Assembly (NCBI GenBank): GCA_003342895.1
Contig: PTFA01000024.1
Coordinates: 4,273,505 to 4,337,504, forward strand
Direction of reading: 5' to 3'
DNA length: 64,000 nt
Source of the DNA: Casuarius casuarius
Lineage: Eukaryota; Chordata; Aves; Casuariiformes; Casuariidae
This document shows, piece by piece, positions 9,401-15,400 of the stretch. Position numbers and translations under genes: made by a program. The stretch's first letter is position 1. Each line of letters starts with the position of its first letter. Under the pieces are notes generated by a model, which ran no database searches, had not been told where the DNA came from, and saw only the letters and a list, made by a program, of their open reading frames with translations.

Positions 9401-12400
9401 GCTCTGCCAAGCAGAGGTCTTAAGATGTTGCCATTTGTCGGTGTTTTCACAAGGGATCAAGTAACTCATTTGTATATAACGTTATACGTTATTATATATA
9501 TTGTGTTATGTTCTTTCCTAGAGGTCTCAATTAAAGAGCTTTCTATTAAATGTGGGCAGAGGATGCCAAATATTAGACTGTGTGCCAAAAAACTGAGGAA
9601 AGCTTGACTTCGTGTTAAGGAAAGATGCATGGTAACGACAAGAAGAAATAGAAAATTGAGGAGACTGAAAGACTGAGAGCTAAAGGGTCACTTTTGTAGT
9701 TAATCAGTGAATTGAGACTAGATCATTTGCACTTGGTAGTGTGCATTGATTTCCAGGGAGCCCCAGGGCTGGAGCAGAGGTTTCCAGACAGCATGCGCTT
9801 TATTCTTCTTTTGAGCCATTCCCCTGTTTGAAAATGAGCATATAAGGACAAGAGAAAGAAGAAAATGTAGTAAGATACAGTCATGTTAGAGAATGTCTGA
9901 TGAGGAACTTAAGAAGCAGCTCCCAACTTTCCCTGTCTTATTTTCACCTAGCTTGGGAGCAAGGGCACTGCCTGTTTCACCAAGAGGCTCCTCGGTGTTT
10001 CTGTGTGCTGTTATCGTTTGATTTGAGACTGCTGGTGCAGCCGGGAATCTCTTTGTTTCATTCAAAGTGAGACGAGGACAATGTTAACTGACAACTACTC
10101 CATCTTCCACGATTTTTTCAAAAATGGTGAGAGGCAGTAACATCACCGTGTGATAATACCAGTGCCTTCGCCTAGCAGTGCTTTGTCAGTGGTGTACTAC
10201 GCTGTGGCACTCCATGCATCAGAACTGGCTCAGAGTTTCTCGTTTGTTATGTAAACAAATTGAATTTTACCGCTCTGTTATAGAAGGGTAAAATGGTAAT
10301 GAGAGATGAGTTCCCGATAGGAAAGATGGAGTTAGAGAGATGGGAGGGATAAATGGGATTTCACAGATTGTATAAAGATGAGGAAACAGGACTGAGATTG
10401 GAGCGGGTACTGCATGGATCAGAGCCCAGTAGCTGAGGAAATATGCCATAGAAGCAATGGGTAACTTGGCTGCCAAAACACAATGATGATCATCCAAAAA
10501 GTAAGCTGATCCTAGATTTATTTTAGATTTGATACAAACACACATTTCATGTTTTGTGTTCATAAAGCAAGAATATTACTAGTGGAAAAGAAACCAAGTT
10601 AGTTCTGGTAATATGGACATGTGAACTGAATTAAAAGGTGACTAACGAGCTGGAAAAATGCAGTTTACAATTGTACTCAGCAAACCGTTTAAAGGATTAG
10701 GATGCATAATGATTTGATCTCTTGTAAAGGGTATATTCATTGGAAGGATAGGAACCAAAGTGTGGCGGTCTGATTCACGGACTCCAATGTGCTGGATCAG
10801 AATCAACNTTATTCAAGCAAGCAAGCCCTTTATATAAGCTCTAGCCCAGATCGGTACTTTCCCGAAGGTCAAGTTCCCATCATCACTCCTTCTCATCCTG
10901 TGCGGCTACTACCTTATCTACATACTGCTATTTATTCCTCCCAAGGCTTTCGGCTCCTTAACTCTATCTTGTCCAATCCCTCGTTGTCTGCCCCTACATC
11001 TCCCCCTTTTTTATTTTCTAAACTAAATATTGCCAGTGCAGTGTGTATTTGTACAGCAAGTACTTGATGCAAAGCCCTTCGAGTCATTCTCTGCATAAGG
11101 CTTATTAAGCAGGGGAGATAGATAGCAAGGGCTAGAAATCTTAGCAAGATTACCAATCCACACGCCAGTACCTTCTTAACCCACAACCCCAAACCTAATG
11201 TCCAGTCCTATCCCTCAAAAGGGTTCCACTCTGATTTTATCTACAACTTACTAGTAAGGTCACGTAGTTGCGGTAAGCTTTTATGAATCGATATTGACCC
11301 TGCACGAGGCAGGCAGGTATTGCCAGAAAATGTCCTGAAATGGGCTTATCTTAACTGGCTCTCAGTCCTCGTTTGGTGTTCCGAGGGATGCGTCAACAGG
11401 TCGAATCAGCCGTGCAGGCATCCAGCGAGGCCCGTTACCTGTGCAGACACAAGCATAACCTTTCCCCCACGTTATTAAGTCTACTGGTTCACTCCATTGA
11501 CCCGTTTCCAGGTTCTTGTAGTGAACCCGAGGCTGTTCTCGCCACGTAGGGCATGAGAAATGCTTTTTAACTGTACTTTGGTCCGTATAACAGTTTAAGA
11601 GGTTGAGAACATATAAGGCTTTCCACAGCTGCTCTTGTGGGGAGGCACCGGGGCTATTCCCCCCCTTTTTTTTTTAAGCATGTTTTTTAGAGTACGATGG
11701 GTACGTTCCACTATTGCCTGGCCAGTTGGGGAATGAGGAATTCCAGTCACATGAGTGACCCCCCAGGTTTGAAGAAATGCCCGCGTTCGCTGTGCAGCGT
11801 ATGCGGGACCATTGTCAGTTTTAATTTGAGTGGGAACTCCCATTGTGGCAAAACAGGCAAGCCAGTGATGACATACATCGCGGCTTTTTTCCCCAACATG
11901 GGCAGTAGTGACAACGTAACGGGAAAAGGTATCTACAGAGACATGGACATATTTCAGTCTTCCGAATGAGCGATAACGGATAACATCTGTCTGCCAGACA
12001 TTGCAAGGCTGCAGGCCTCGAGGATTGGTCCCTAAGTAGGGTGGTAACAGGGATACATTTTGGCAGTCAGGGCAACTTCAAATAATGTTTTGGGCCTAGT
12101 CCCTTGTGATATGATAAGTTTTTTGTGGCGCTTTTGCATTTTAGTGAAAAAAAAAGAAATCATGGGACAATTTAGCCTGCTGATCAAAAGTCCCTTGCTG
12201 GGTTCTGCTGGGTTTTCCTCCTTTGTCAGGAATGGGCAATCCTCCTGACACAGTTGGACCAACTTTTTTTTTTTTTTTTTAATCACACACTCTCTTTCTC
12301 TCACTCTCTGGGAACTGCGCTCACACCACCCGAGTCTTTAACTGCTAGGACAGCTGTCCCTTCGCAGCGGGCGGCTTCATCAGCCGACGGGCGCCCCGGT

Positions 12401-15400
12401 CGGTTCCCAGGCTATACACACTCGCACACACACAGTGCTGTTCACGCTCACACCAGTCACAGTGACTCTAGACTTCTGTCTAACAGCCTTGCAGTGCGCC
12501 TTATGCTGATCAGGCTGCGCACTCCCCTTTCCGGCCGGACCGAGCTGGGACTCAAAACCCACTCAAACCCTGGGGACGGGACTCGCACCCATCCCCTGGT
12601 ACGCCTCACGGTGGCCAGCCCGCGTACCCCTTACAGTGCACTGTTACCAGACCAGAATTTAGAATTTAGGCGGGAATTTAGGACTCACCTTTTCGGTGCC
12701 TCTTGTTGCCAAAAGATCCCAGATGAACTCACCCAATGGCGCCAGATGATCGTCTGGGGATGAGAGGCCCCGACAGTGGTCGCCTAGGGTCCCACCTGGG
12801 GTGCCAAACTGTTATGGAAATTAGGCTTGTCGGCCACCATAACAAGGCTCGACCCTATGTTCCTGCAAGTAAAGTTCAGAGCCAAATCAAAACAAATTAG
12901 ATAATTAAATTTTAATGACACGTGTGCAGTAATTACAGCTCAAGCTGGGTGCCTCCAAAGAGGGACTTCTTGATTTAGACATTACAGAAGAATCTGTCTT
13001 TGTTGCAGCTGTAGATACAATTTCATTTCTATGTCATAAGGCGTATCATTTTCCGTTGGTAGCTCAAACACACNCCTAAGTTTCNAATGCNTGAGTTCTT
13101 CTGGTTTTGCCTCTTTCCATACTGCTTCCATATCTGAAGTATCAGCTGGAGCAAGCACAGACTGTTGGTTGGTGGGTGTTTTGGGTTTTCTTTTTTTGTT
13201 TGTTTCTTTTTTGTTTTGTTTTTTTTGCCATAAACTTGTGTTTACTTTACTCATTAGGATCATAGTCAAAAGGCTGTAGCATCACAGAAACATTAATTGA
13301 TGTTCCTGCATCGATAATTGCACTGTTAGGTCTTACACAGTATCTCCGTGTTGCTGTGGTCTTAACTTTGAAGCACACACTTCTGTCTGTAGGATTGCCG
13401 AGCTTCAGGTTTGCGGTGACAACATCTGTGAAAGGCTCTTTGAATCTGAGCTCGTGCTGCGGTTCGAGGCTGAGGCCTGCTCCGCTTTCNCCATGTTCCT
13501 CCTCCTGCTGCTCAGCGGTGGCGGCACCAGGTGGAGGCGGCACCAGGCGGAGAGAGGAAGGGCCGGGCGGGAGGGGAAGGCAGGCAGGGAGGAAGGGACG
13601 GAGGGAAGAAGGCAGGCGGTGGGCGTCCCCGCCGGTGTAGTCACGCCCCGCCAAGCGGCCCTGGGGCGATGGATCCTTCCCGGAAGGCCGGGTCAGTGGA
13701 GGGGGTTGTGGGCAGTCCGCACTCGCAGGTAATCCCGTCTCTTGAGGGGGGGGTGGTTCCGGACGGACCGTAAGATGGACACAGCAAGGCGNATTAAGAG
13801 GCGGATAGAGGTCTGGCTCCTGTTCCGGATCGATCCGCCCTGGGTCAAATGGATTGTCTGGGTCGTTTCCTGGNGAGTCCCNTCCACCCACCGCCCCCAC
13901 CACCGTGTCGCTTGACGGAGGTGCTGTGGGGGCTGCGGGTGCTTCCAGTCCCTGTGTTTTCTTCTTGCTATGCTCTTTCAGGGTCTCAAGCGTGCTATGC
14001 CACGGGGCTAAAAGTCCTGCCGCCGTCTTATCGTTTCTTGTTGCCGCGTCCCAGAGCTTAACTCCGATTGAGTCCCACGTACCGAGGCTATAAATCGTAC
14101 TGAAATTCACCTCGGGACAGTTCGAGCGTGCCCACATCAATAACATTTGGAGATCTTGGGTATCTCTCTGCCGTGCTGTTTCAGTCTTTTGCATTACGTT
14201 TAGCACGGACCTATCTTGCGGGGAGATTCCGTTTCCCACAACTCCCACGCGTTCCCGGCCGCTTACCTCCGTCCAGCGGTAGGTAACCTGTTGCACGCAA
14301 CGCCGCTTCCTTTCAGCGGCTCCCCTTCTGCTTCCTTTCAGCAGCTCTTTGTTCAGCCGGGCTCCGCCACCAGTTCAGCTAACGGCTGCCTCTGCAGCCC
14401 TGGACGAAGTCAGTCTTCGGTCCCTGTTCGGGCGCCATTTGTGGCGGTCTGATTCACGGACTCCGATGTGCTGGATCAGAATCAACTTTATTCAAGCAAG
14501 CAAGCCCTTTATATAAGCTCTAGCCCGGATCGGTACTTTCCCGAAGGTCAAGTTCCCATCATCACTCCTTCTCATCCTGTGCGGCTACTACCTTATCTAC
14601 ATACTGCTATTTATTCCTCCCAAGGCTTTCGGCTCCTTAACTCTATCTTGTCCAATCCCTTGCTGTCTGCCGCTACACCAAAGCATGGGAGTTTTCAAGT
14701 AAGAATATAAAGAGAGCAGAATTATGCTGTTTAAAGCTAGTTCTTCTTGAGCAATAACCAATACCATAAGTAACCGCAGCAGTTGCTGTAGTACAAATCA
14801 AAAACTTAACCCTCCTGGACCCCTCAGAATTCAAAAGGCTATGTAAAAGAGGGAGAAAATCTCAGAAAAAAACTATTCTTGGTGCAAACACAGAATAGGA
14901 ATCACTTCTGATCTAAAACACTCACAACTCATGTGTTTGGCAGTGTAAGGCAGGCAAAGAGAGGAAAGCAGAGCCAAGTAGAGCAAAGAAACAGCCATGG
15001 GATTTGGAGACAGGGCCTAAATCTTTGTTCTGTGCCTTAGCAATGCCACCTTTGTTTCTTTTAGATTAATTCCGTGTTTCACTGACACAAAATGCAAATT
15101 CTTGTGAGAGAATAAAAAAAGAAAAAAAGTTAAACATAACTCCAGAGCTCATTATCTCTATACAGGTGTGTAATGATTAAATGTAAAATTTTAAACAGTT
15201 GATTATTTTAATTTGGGAAAGGATTGTTAGCCAGTAATGATCATGGATAATGTTGAAATTTACATAAATACTTTGATCCTGTTTCTGTGGATGACAGTAG
15301 GATCAGCCCCAGAATTTGTTATAATCTAAAATAACTGATGCACAACTGATGCACAAAGAATACCATTTTAATGACAAGAGGTTTCCCCAGGCACACCATG

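Follow-up and report, generated by a model that had tools for sequence, protein, structure and literature searches.

Evidence that a betaretrovirus-like endogenous retrovirus captured a host VAPB mRNA and multiplied with it in a casuariiform bird

Our results suggest that, very probably, a betaretrovirus-like endogenous retrovirus (ERV) of a casuariiform bird took up the spliced mRNA of the host gene VAPB, and that the resulting defective chimera was copied by helper viruses, remodelled and multiplied. The chimera was found in a 64,000-nucleotide stretch of the Casuarius casuarius genome (the window) as a minus-strand provirus, which spans 10755-14683 including its target duplications. A preliminary description of the same DNA had already read it as a defective ERV with a captured host VAPB mRNA, and this reading is borne out: VAPB introns are absent, the junctions, compared with the exon borders as that description had proposed, lie inside exons, and the junction recurs at many loci that have target-site duplications (TSDs) of their own.

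Between paired LTRs, the provirus in the window contains gag, VAPB 5′UTR, intronless VAPB, the leader of a second ERV, an A17 run and integrase, all in minus-strand orientation. Accordingly, the LTR on the right (14440..14677) is the 5′ one and that on the left (10761..10998) the 3′ one. The two are identical in 232 of 238 bases (5 differences in 237 bases with N excluded) and the target duplication CCAAAG is present on both sides (10755..10760 and 14678..14683), in agreement with the single provirus described earlier. A primer-binding site (PBS; 14420..14437), which we take to be of the tRNA-Lys type, and a polypurine tract adjoining the 3′ LTR (10999..11012) were identified by eye. Integrase and Env remnants had also been proposed. 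Integrase was confirmed, with a core that is betaretroviral by sequence (11595..12077; Pfam rve, 5.7e-22) and a C-terminal domain (11362..11673; Pfam, 3.7e-12), while Env was not: the 86-codon frame at 10932-11192, the one frame of that region scanned, resembles an Env membrane tail by eye and gave no Pfam match to Env. Class II retroviruses are characterized by an integrase nearest to betaretroviruses, a Lys-type PBS and a 6-bp TSD, and on these features, in an element without a reverse transcriptase (RT) for a tree, the provirus is betaretrovirus-like. An Rfam search gave no match at E up to 1. The gag-VAPB junction was not matched exactly by any of the viral contigs searched, and six stretches fitted the integrase patterns, none of which was confirmed.

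The gag part comprises a matrix region (13901..14300), related to gag P0121 and without an ATG at the expected start, and a proline-rich region (13651..13900) that runs into the VAPB 5′UTR at an approximate junction. The 5′UTR-derived stretch (13495..13650) is like an avian VAPB 5′UTR (P0049) to about 13570. It is followed by part of VAPB exons 1-3 with the MSP domain (13229..13494; start codon at 13492-13494), by an A-rich insert of about 60-65 bases after VAPB residue 89, which varies among copies (13162..13228), and by part of exons 3-5 (12953..13161), in which exons 4 and 5 are fused without an intron and which ends at nucleotide 89 of exon 5. A retained intron was considered as the source of the insert and ruled out by position, as the insert sits at residue 89, between the end of exon 2 (about residue 70) and the start of exon 4 (residue 106). 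The identity of the cargo was assessed by a Pfam match to the MSP domain (1.2e-22), by bird VAPBs, which match at 92% across 85% of the segment queried, and by emu VAPB, whose tblastn match spans 13474-12953; the second piece has a VAPA as its best solved-structure match (9e-15), with VAPB next. VAPB similarity had previously been assigned to 12956-13660. The similarity is real, but its coding part is 12953-13494, and the sequence upstream, from 13495 to about 13570 and perhaps to 13650, is 5′UTR. In this copy, a stop, a frameshift and the A-rich insert interrupt the VAPB frame, and an open Gag-VAPB frame of 375 codons is present. Exon 1 and the 5′UTR of the true VAPB gene were not found in the genome with a 26-base pattern allowing one mismatch.

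The 1.19-Gb genome from which the window comes was searched completely with the VAPB exon-2 peptide, all 80 candidates being scored. The search yielded 76 matches, namely the true VAPB gene (100% identity) and 75 matches at 74 places; of these places we read 43, another 12 had a DNA match and 19 a peptide match alone. Three further places from other searches bring the VAPB-bearing total to 77, and 46 loci, some of them incomplete, were read. N runs occur in several copies of the assembly. Since copies were located via VAPB, those that have lost it would escape detection. The same gag-VAPB junction was present in all 20 copies chosen by VAPB match alone (L039-L058, window included). A search for the gag-5′UTR junction gave 40 matches at no fewer than 39 places with 40 of 78 candidates scored, and there are at least 45 window-type places once the read copies are added, besides the copies C673 and C360. 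Matrix, proline-rich region, UTR and VAPB were all present in each of the 40 window-type copies read, in consistent order in 39; the exception, C385, carries an internal duplication.

Sixteen copies were flanked by both LTRs together with a target duplication: 13 have exact 6-bp TSDs, two agree in 5 of 6 bases and one has an exact repeat of ambiguous length. Their LTR K values range from 0 to 0.071, with a median of 0.026. As the junction is shared and the exact TSDs are separate, the chimera itself multiplied, and it is a family rather than a single locus; the earlier suggestion to look for more loci that share the gag-VAPB junction thus proved positive in dozens of places. Some copies could stem from segmental duplication, TSDs having been checked in 16. 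A tree of 43 VAPB pieces had a star-like shape with little support (stars on 4 of its 40 inner branches), so no conclusions on subfamilies were drawn. The annotated emu protein LOC135324495 (P0003), predicted to have 306 amino acids, has the same gag-VAPB fusion and carries G20E, which occurs in none of 104 VAPBs compared. That the chimera at the window locus is false, produced by misassembly or a collapsed repeat, is therefore exceedingly unlikely: although the provirus holds all eight N of the window, a pattern to be expected when an assembler is confused by near-identical copies, the same junctions lie on dozens of contigs that have flanks and TSDs of their own, and the fusion recurs in the separately annotated emu protein.

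In the true VAPB gene, the two positions read, between exons 4 and 5 and between exons 5 and 6, hold introns. Both introns are lost from the copies: all 35 copies that have both exons 4 and 5 join them, 32 of them to the base, and exons 5 and 6 are likewise fused in all five copies with these two. Among 36 copies, the exon-5 match ends at nucleotide 89 in 27, at 85 in three and at 72 in one, and is full in five. In six long copies VAPB continues to residue 215, without the membrane anchor; exon 6 ends at nucleotide 71-72 in all six, followed each time by the same pol stretch, which resembles RNase H (Pfam 7.7e-5, just under the curated cut-off). These copies bear on whether a VAPB processed pseudogene had inserted into an ERV and the pair then spread together. 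The intronless VAPB and the A run downstream would fit such an event, but the 3′ join of the long copies lies inside exon 6 and passes straight into pol without poly(A), the A run sits past the second-ERV leader, and a search for gag p24 at 1e-4 gave no match in any of the 46 loci, which include partial ones. The terminal 3′ poly(A) that marks a LINE-made pseudogene is lacking, and we regard this origin as very improbable. We conclude that the long form is the older one and that the join of VAPB to the second ERV seen in the window arose by later recombination, with C360, which combines the window's matrix with the long VAPB, as an intermediate.

The second-ERV segment, recognized by eye, consists of the end of an LTR (U5) and a leader (about 12281..12952), including a PBS-like stretch presumably of the tRNA-Arg type (12788..12806, likewise by eye). 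It was found in 30 of 40 window-type copies and had no match in the long copies. Next to it lies the A17 run (12264..12280), A-rich and 9 to about 50 bases long in other copies, and then about 80 bases of unassigned source (12183..12263), again without a match in the long copies. The A17 run was rejected as the tail of the VAPB mRNA, against which the long copies speak. Leader and A run may instead have been captured jointly as a polyadenylated second-ERV transcript in a further RNA-level event, a serious possibility to which we give somewhat less than even chances: an A run occurs in all 24 copies in which both its sides were found, and the sequence changes sharply on both sides, but the unassigned bases separate the run from integrase, and the run may be internal to the second ERV.

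For the capture itself, we propose that the host was a casuariiform bird, the emu or a near relative, and that VAPB mRNA was taken up when reverse transcription changed template twice. One switch probably led from the RNase H sequence to a point in VAPB exon 6 immediately ahead of the membrane anchor, and the other from the VAPB 5′UTR back to gag; the direction and order of the switches are inferred. Capsid, protease and most of RT would have been replaced, while LTRs, primer site, leader and polypurine tract were retained, so that helper viruses could package, copy and integrate the chimera; the missing genes point to such helper dependence. In this account, later recombination brought in a different gag matrix and put the second ERV's leader and A run in place of RNase H and the 3′ half of VAPB, after which the window-type form multiplied.

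The role of the cargo was assessed by counting distinct changes in 86 MSP codons of 41 copies relative to C259. We observed 94 nonsynonymous, 37 synonymous and 2 stop changes, where 91.8, 38.4 and 2.8 are expected without selection under the same spectrum; omega is about 1.06, with a hand-estimated 95% range of 0.7-1.6. Coding constraint on VAPB was thus not detected in this set, and as the changes fit no protein selection, VAPB looks like a passenger, probably moved by helpers. Because the window and the emu protein both have a stop following VAPB residue 82 and a length change of one base, these were at first taken to mark a conserved Gag-VAPB fusion, a reading overturned by the 41 copies compared (7 and 29 of 40 scorable copies, respectively). 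It is accordingly unlikely that the cargo was useful as a protein and its spread selected, either as a Gag-VAPB fusion or as an anchorless VAPB titrating FFAT-motif partners, although a comparable case has been made for KIT-ligand and nectin3 of crocodilian ERVs. The open frames of the window copy and the emu protein, the cytosolic, anchorless VAPB of the long form and a ratio of 0.74 obtained by site counting without the mutation spectrum favor such a use, but besides the near-neutral counts, the changes common to at least three copies (27 nonsynonymous, 10 synonymous, 1 stop), the single open frame across gag and MSP in only 3 of 43 copies (motif check) and the loss of the VAPB 3′ half from the window form argue against it. 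Similarly doubtful is the idea that the 5′UTR and MSP piece were kept through two later remodellings because they helped the element, the anchorless VAPB of the older form interfering with ER contact-site partners required by retroviruses, or the GC-rich 5′UTR RNA aiding packaging or translation; if true, a captured ER tether would have become a retroviral accessory function.

Acute transforming retroviruses carry host mRNA in place of viral genes, with partial gag in front, and depend on helpers. Unlike in those viruses, the cargo here is not an oncogene, is present in germ-line copies, looks neutral and showed no coding constraint. The capture proposed earlier stands. The behaviour of the cargo is not that of a selected oncogene.

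Host-gene capture by retroviruses is already known, whereas the cargo, host and copy number look new; our literature search found no report of VAPB cargo in a ratite-type bird. In the excerpted text of Chong et al. (2014; PMC4299795), the crocodilian CrocERV29 carries KIT-ligand (nine copies with the ORF) and CrocERV31 nectin3 (six insertions), both cargoes under purifying selection, the uptake of KIT-ligand cost no viral domain, and crocodilian ERVs are ERV1, ERV3, ERV4 or intermediate. As far as these excerpts go, they are likewise archosaur ERVs with host mRNA that multiplied with their cargo; the VAPB element differs in being betaretrovirus-like, in occupying 77 places, in that capsid was not found and in showing no sign of selection. 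ERV-Hako of primates, in the excerpts of Frith (2025; PMC11905727), similarly has a host mRNA piece in several copies of one ERV, there the SUSD6 or SPHKAP 3′UTR, here 5′UTR and coding sequence in a bird. Human FAM8A1 was also transduced by an ERV, a HERV of primates (Jamain et al., 2001, as cited in PMC6987440). LTR-mediated retrocopies, attributed to co-packaged mRNA and template switching and said to occur in chicken (Tan et al., 2016, in excerpts of the review PMC5408686), share the proposed mechanism, but the VAPB chimera kept replicating as a family.

The VAPB family documents, in many copies and in datable form, how a retrovirus captured a gene in a vertebrate germ line. Bird LINEs are thought to make few mRNA copies, and an ERV route for such copies is shown here in a bird. 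The older long form, the intermediate C360, the final form and the donor gene (C356) coexist in one genome, where each stage can be followed in turn, from the capture through recombinational remodelling to a carriage that looks neutral.

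A single minus-strand provirus spans positions 10755-14683 of the window. Comparison of its two LTRs (10761-10998 and 14440-14677, both minus strand) over 237 bases gives 5 mismatches, and the sequence read on the outer side of each is CCAAAG, which confirms the earlier account of a provirus with matched LTRs and a target duplication. Along the minus strand from its 5' end, the element runs through the 5' LTR, a Lys-type primer-binding site, a leader, the gag matrix and proline-rich part, the VAPB 5'UTR and the VAPB coding sequence. Next comes the LTR end of a second ERV, which brings a primer-site-like stretch and a leader of its own, followed by an A17 run and roughly 80 unassigned bases. 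Integrase, a polypurine tract and the 3' LTR complete it. The preliminary description had named both integrase and Env remnants. The integrase was confirmed and is betaretroviral by sequence, its best solved relatives (5cz2, 3jca, 7usf and 5cz1; 6e-45 to 1e-41) being, as we assume, MMTV integrase entries; the next, 4fw2 (2.6e-31), we take for RSV, the name borne by 1c0m in the same structure list. The Env assignment was not confirmed; an 86-codon frame at 10932-11192 (minus strand) resembles an Env membrane tail by eye but shows no Env match in Pfam. Neither reverse transcriptase nor protease was detected in the window frames scanned, and the p24 of the related gag protein P0121 had no match at 1e-4 across 46 ERV loci. 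All eight N of the 64-kb window (10808, 13074, 13085, 13091, 13490, 13792, 13874 and 13882) lie in the provirus, with a probability of ~2e-10 under random placement.

Laminin-G/EGF exons at 8798-9109 and 62554-62937 (plus strand; Pfam support weak) presumably belong to a CNTNAP-family gene, and the provirus lies antisense in an intron of this putative gene. The window also contains frames that we take to be CR1 LINE remnant-like (23188-23640, minus strand; 328-633, plus strand), a 161-base unit present twice at 26340-26664 with 99% matches, and an A76 run at 37221-37296.

An MSP domain (PF00635, 1.2e-22) stands at the end of the open frame 13247-14296, and a protein search with this part gave 1414 matches among 1476 candidates at E 0.001; among the best 120 of these, bird VAPBs match it at 92%. 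Residue 131 is T in both the window copy and emu VAPB, while among the matches listed it is K in 60 and N in one of the 61 remaining motif-bearing proteins. The true VAPB gene of the same genome lies on contig C356, where exon 2 agrees with emu VAPB at 51/51 residues, exon 4 at 27/27 (ending ENDTP), exon 5 at 59/59 and exon 6 at 51/52. These matches point to emu or a close relative as the source bird, presumably a cassowary. Because the window frame ends before K87 and M89, the residues that we take to bind FFAT motifs, the window copy should not bind these motifs.

A predicted emu Gag-VAPB fusion protein (LOC135324495, P0003) is identical to the window frame at 156/196 residues from the gag DPFDPG motif onward and at 26/109 upstream of it. 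It carries the VAPB change G20E, found in 0/104 VAPBs compared. A search with its gag-UTR part returned only itself (411 candidates), and one with the window gag part returned P0003 and P0121 (1539 candidates).

Searches of the window's own genome gave at least 42 rows at 40 or more places for a 501-base VAPB query (98 candidates, 40 of them scored), at least 40 rows at 39 or more places with the gag-5'UTR junction (40 of 78 scored), and 76 rows with the exon-2 peptide (80/80 scored). One exon-2 row is the true gene; the other 75, two of them on C385, represent 74 places. The sequence was read at 43 of these, a further 12 also had a DNA match in the VAPB or junction search, and 19 matched by peptide alone and could include other VAPB copies. 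Contigs C207, C105 and C755, each found by other searches, bring the total to 77 places.

Among the 46 loci read, 40 are of the window type and six belong to a long, presumably older form. Every window-type copy contains the gag matrix and proline-rich part together with the VAPB 5'UTR and coding piece; the element order is consistent in 39/40, and the leader was detected in 30/40; five of the ten copies lacking it have N totals of 791-3018. Since 20 copies had been selected by junction match, the junction is no test in these. It was found in 20/20 copies selected by VAPB match alone (L039-L058, including the window copy), so the predicted recurrence at further loci was observed and the element forms a family.

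Several copies are irregular. In L044 (C385:1-7155), the segment made up of VAPB, UTR and part of gag occurs twice in direct orientation with units ~716 bases apart, an internal duplication that may be an assembly effect, and L018 (C207), in which LTR sequence breaks VAPB, is a recombined or rearranged copy. In L021 (C217), L027 (C970) and L033 (C573), integrase directly follows the first half of VAPB; the second half and the second-ERV leader were not found in these three, perhaps through separate deletions. The open frames reported around the VAPB matches at C558:120164 and C115:2565888 are 2790 and 948 codons long, perhaps due to N runs.

An exon-6 peptide search gave seven matches (8/8 candidates scored), the gene and the six long ERV loci. 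Junctions were compared with the VAPB exon borders. In all six long copies, similarity ends at nt 71-72 of exon 6 (residue 215), from which it follows that the VAPB membrane anchor was left out, and one common pol sequence follows, including in C259 and C105; in C673 it matches Pfam RNase H at 7.7e-5 (23.3 bits, cut-off 25.8). In window-type copies, exon 5 similarity ends at nt 89 of 177 (27 copies), 85 (three) or 72 (one), where the second-ERV sequence starts, and an A-rich run of 9 to ~50 bases follows that sequence in 24/24 copies having both sides. In C259, VAPB begins in its own reading frame and G20E, which 39/41 other copies carry, is absent. C673 alone among the 46 loci matches the P0003-type matrix (87% over 100 residues), and C360 combines the window-type matrix with long VAPB; judged from these sequences, the matrix was therefore exchanged in a different event from the one that altered the 3' side of VAPB.

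Relative to C259, 41 copies show 94 nonsynonymous, 37 synonymous and 2 stop distinct changes, against 91.8, 38.4 and 2.8 expected without selection under the same mutation spectrum; simple site counting, which ignores the spectrum, gives a ratio of 0.74. Because the bulk of these changes is probably post-insertional, weak past selection on the VAPB cargo may have occurred.

Both LTRs are present in 16 copies. The target duplication is 6 bp long and exact in 13 of them; the repeat at L056 is exact as well but its length is unclear, and L045 and L047 agree at 5/6 bases. The TATTAT duplication occurs at both L051 and L055, whose flanks differ. The recurrence of the gag-VAPB junction at loci with their own duplications points to independent integrations and bears out the initial proposal that an ERV captured a host VAPB mRNA. 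LTR divergence ranges from 0/232 (L058, C109) to 0.071 with a median of 0.026. Avian substitution rates are 1-2e-9 per site and year, under which the median corresponds to roughly 6-13 million years; L058 could be a young copy or reflect gene conversion or an assembly effect.

Our results show a real retroviral mRNA capture via an ordinary mechanism. None of the titles listed by VAPB searches of an open-access library concerns VAPB in an ERV, and as most subscription papers lie outside this scope, the novelty of the capture is tentative. Crocodilian ERVs (Chong et al., 2014, PMC4299795) and ERV-Hako (Frith, 2025, PMC11905727) provide precedents for host mRNA capture by ERVs. The kind of event is already known; the cargo and the host appear to be new, and the record of the capture is unusually full.
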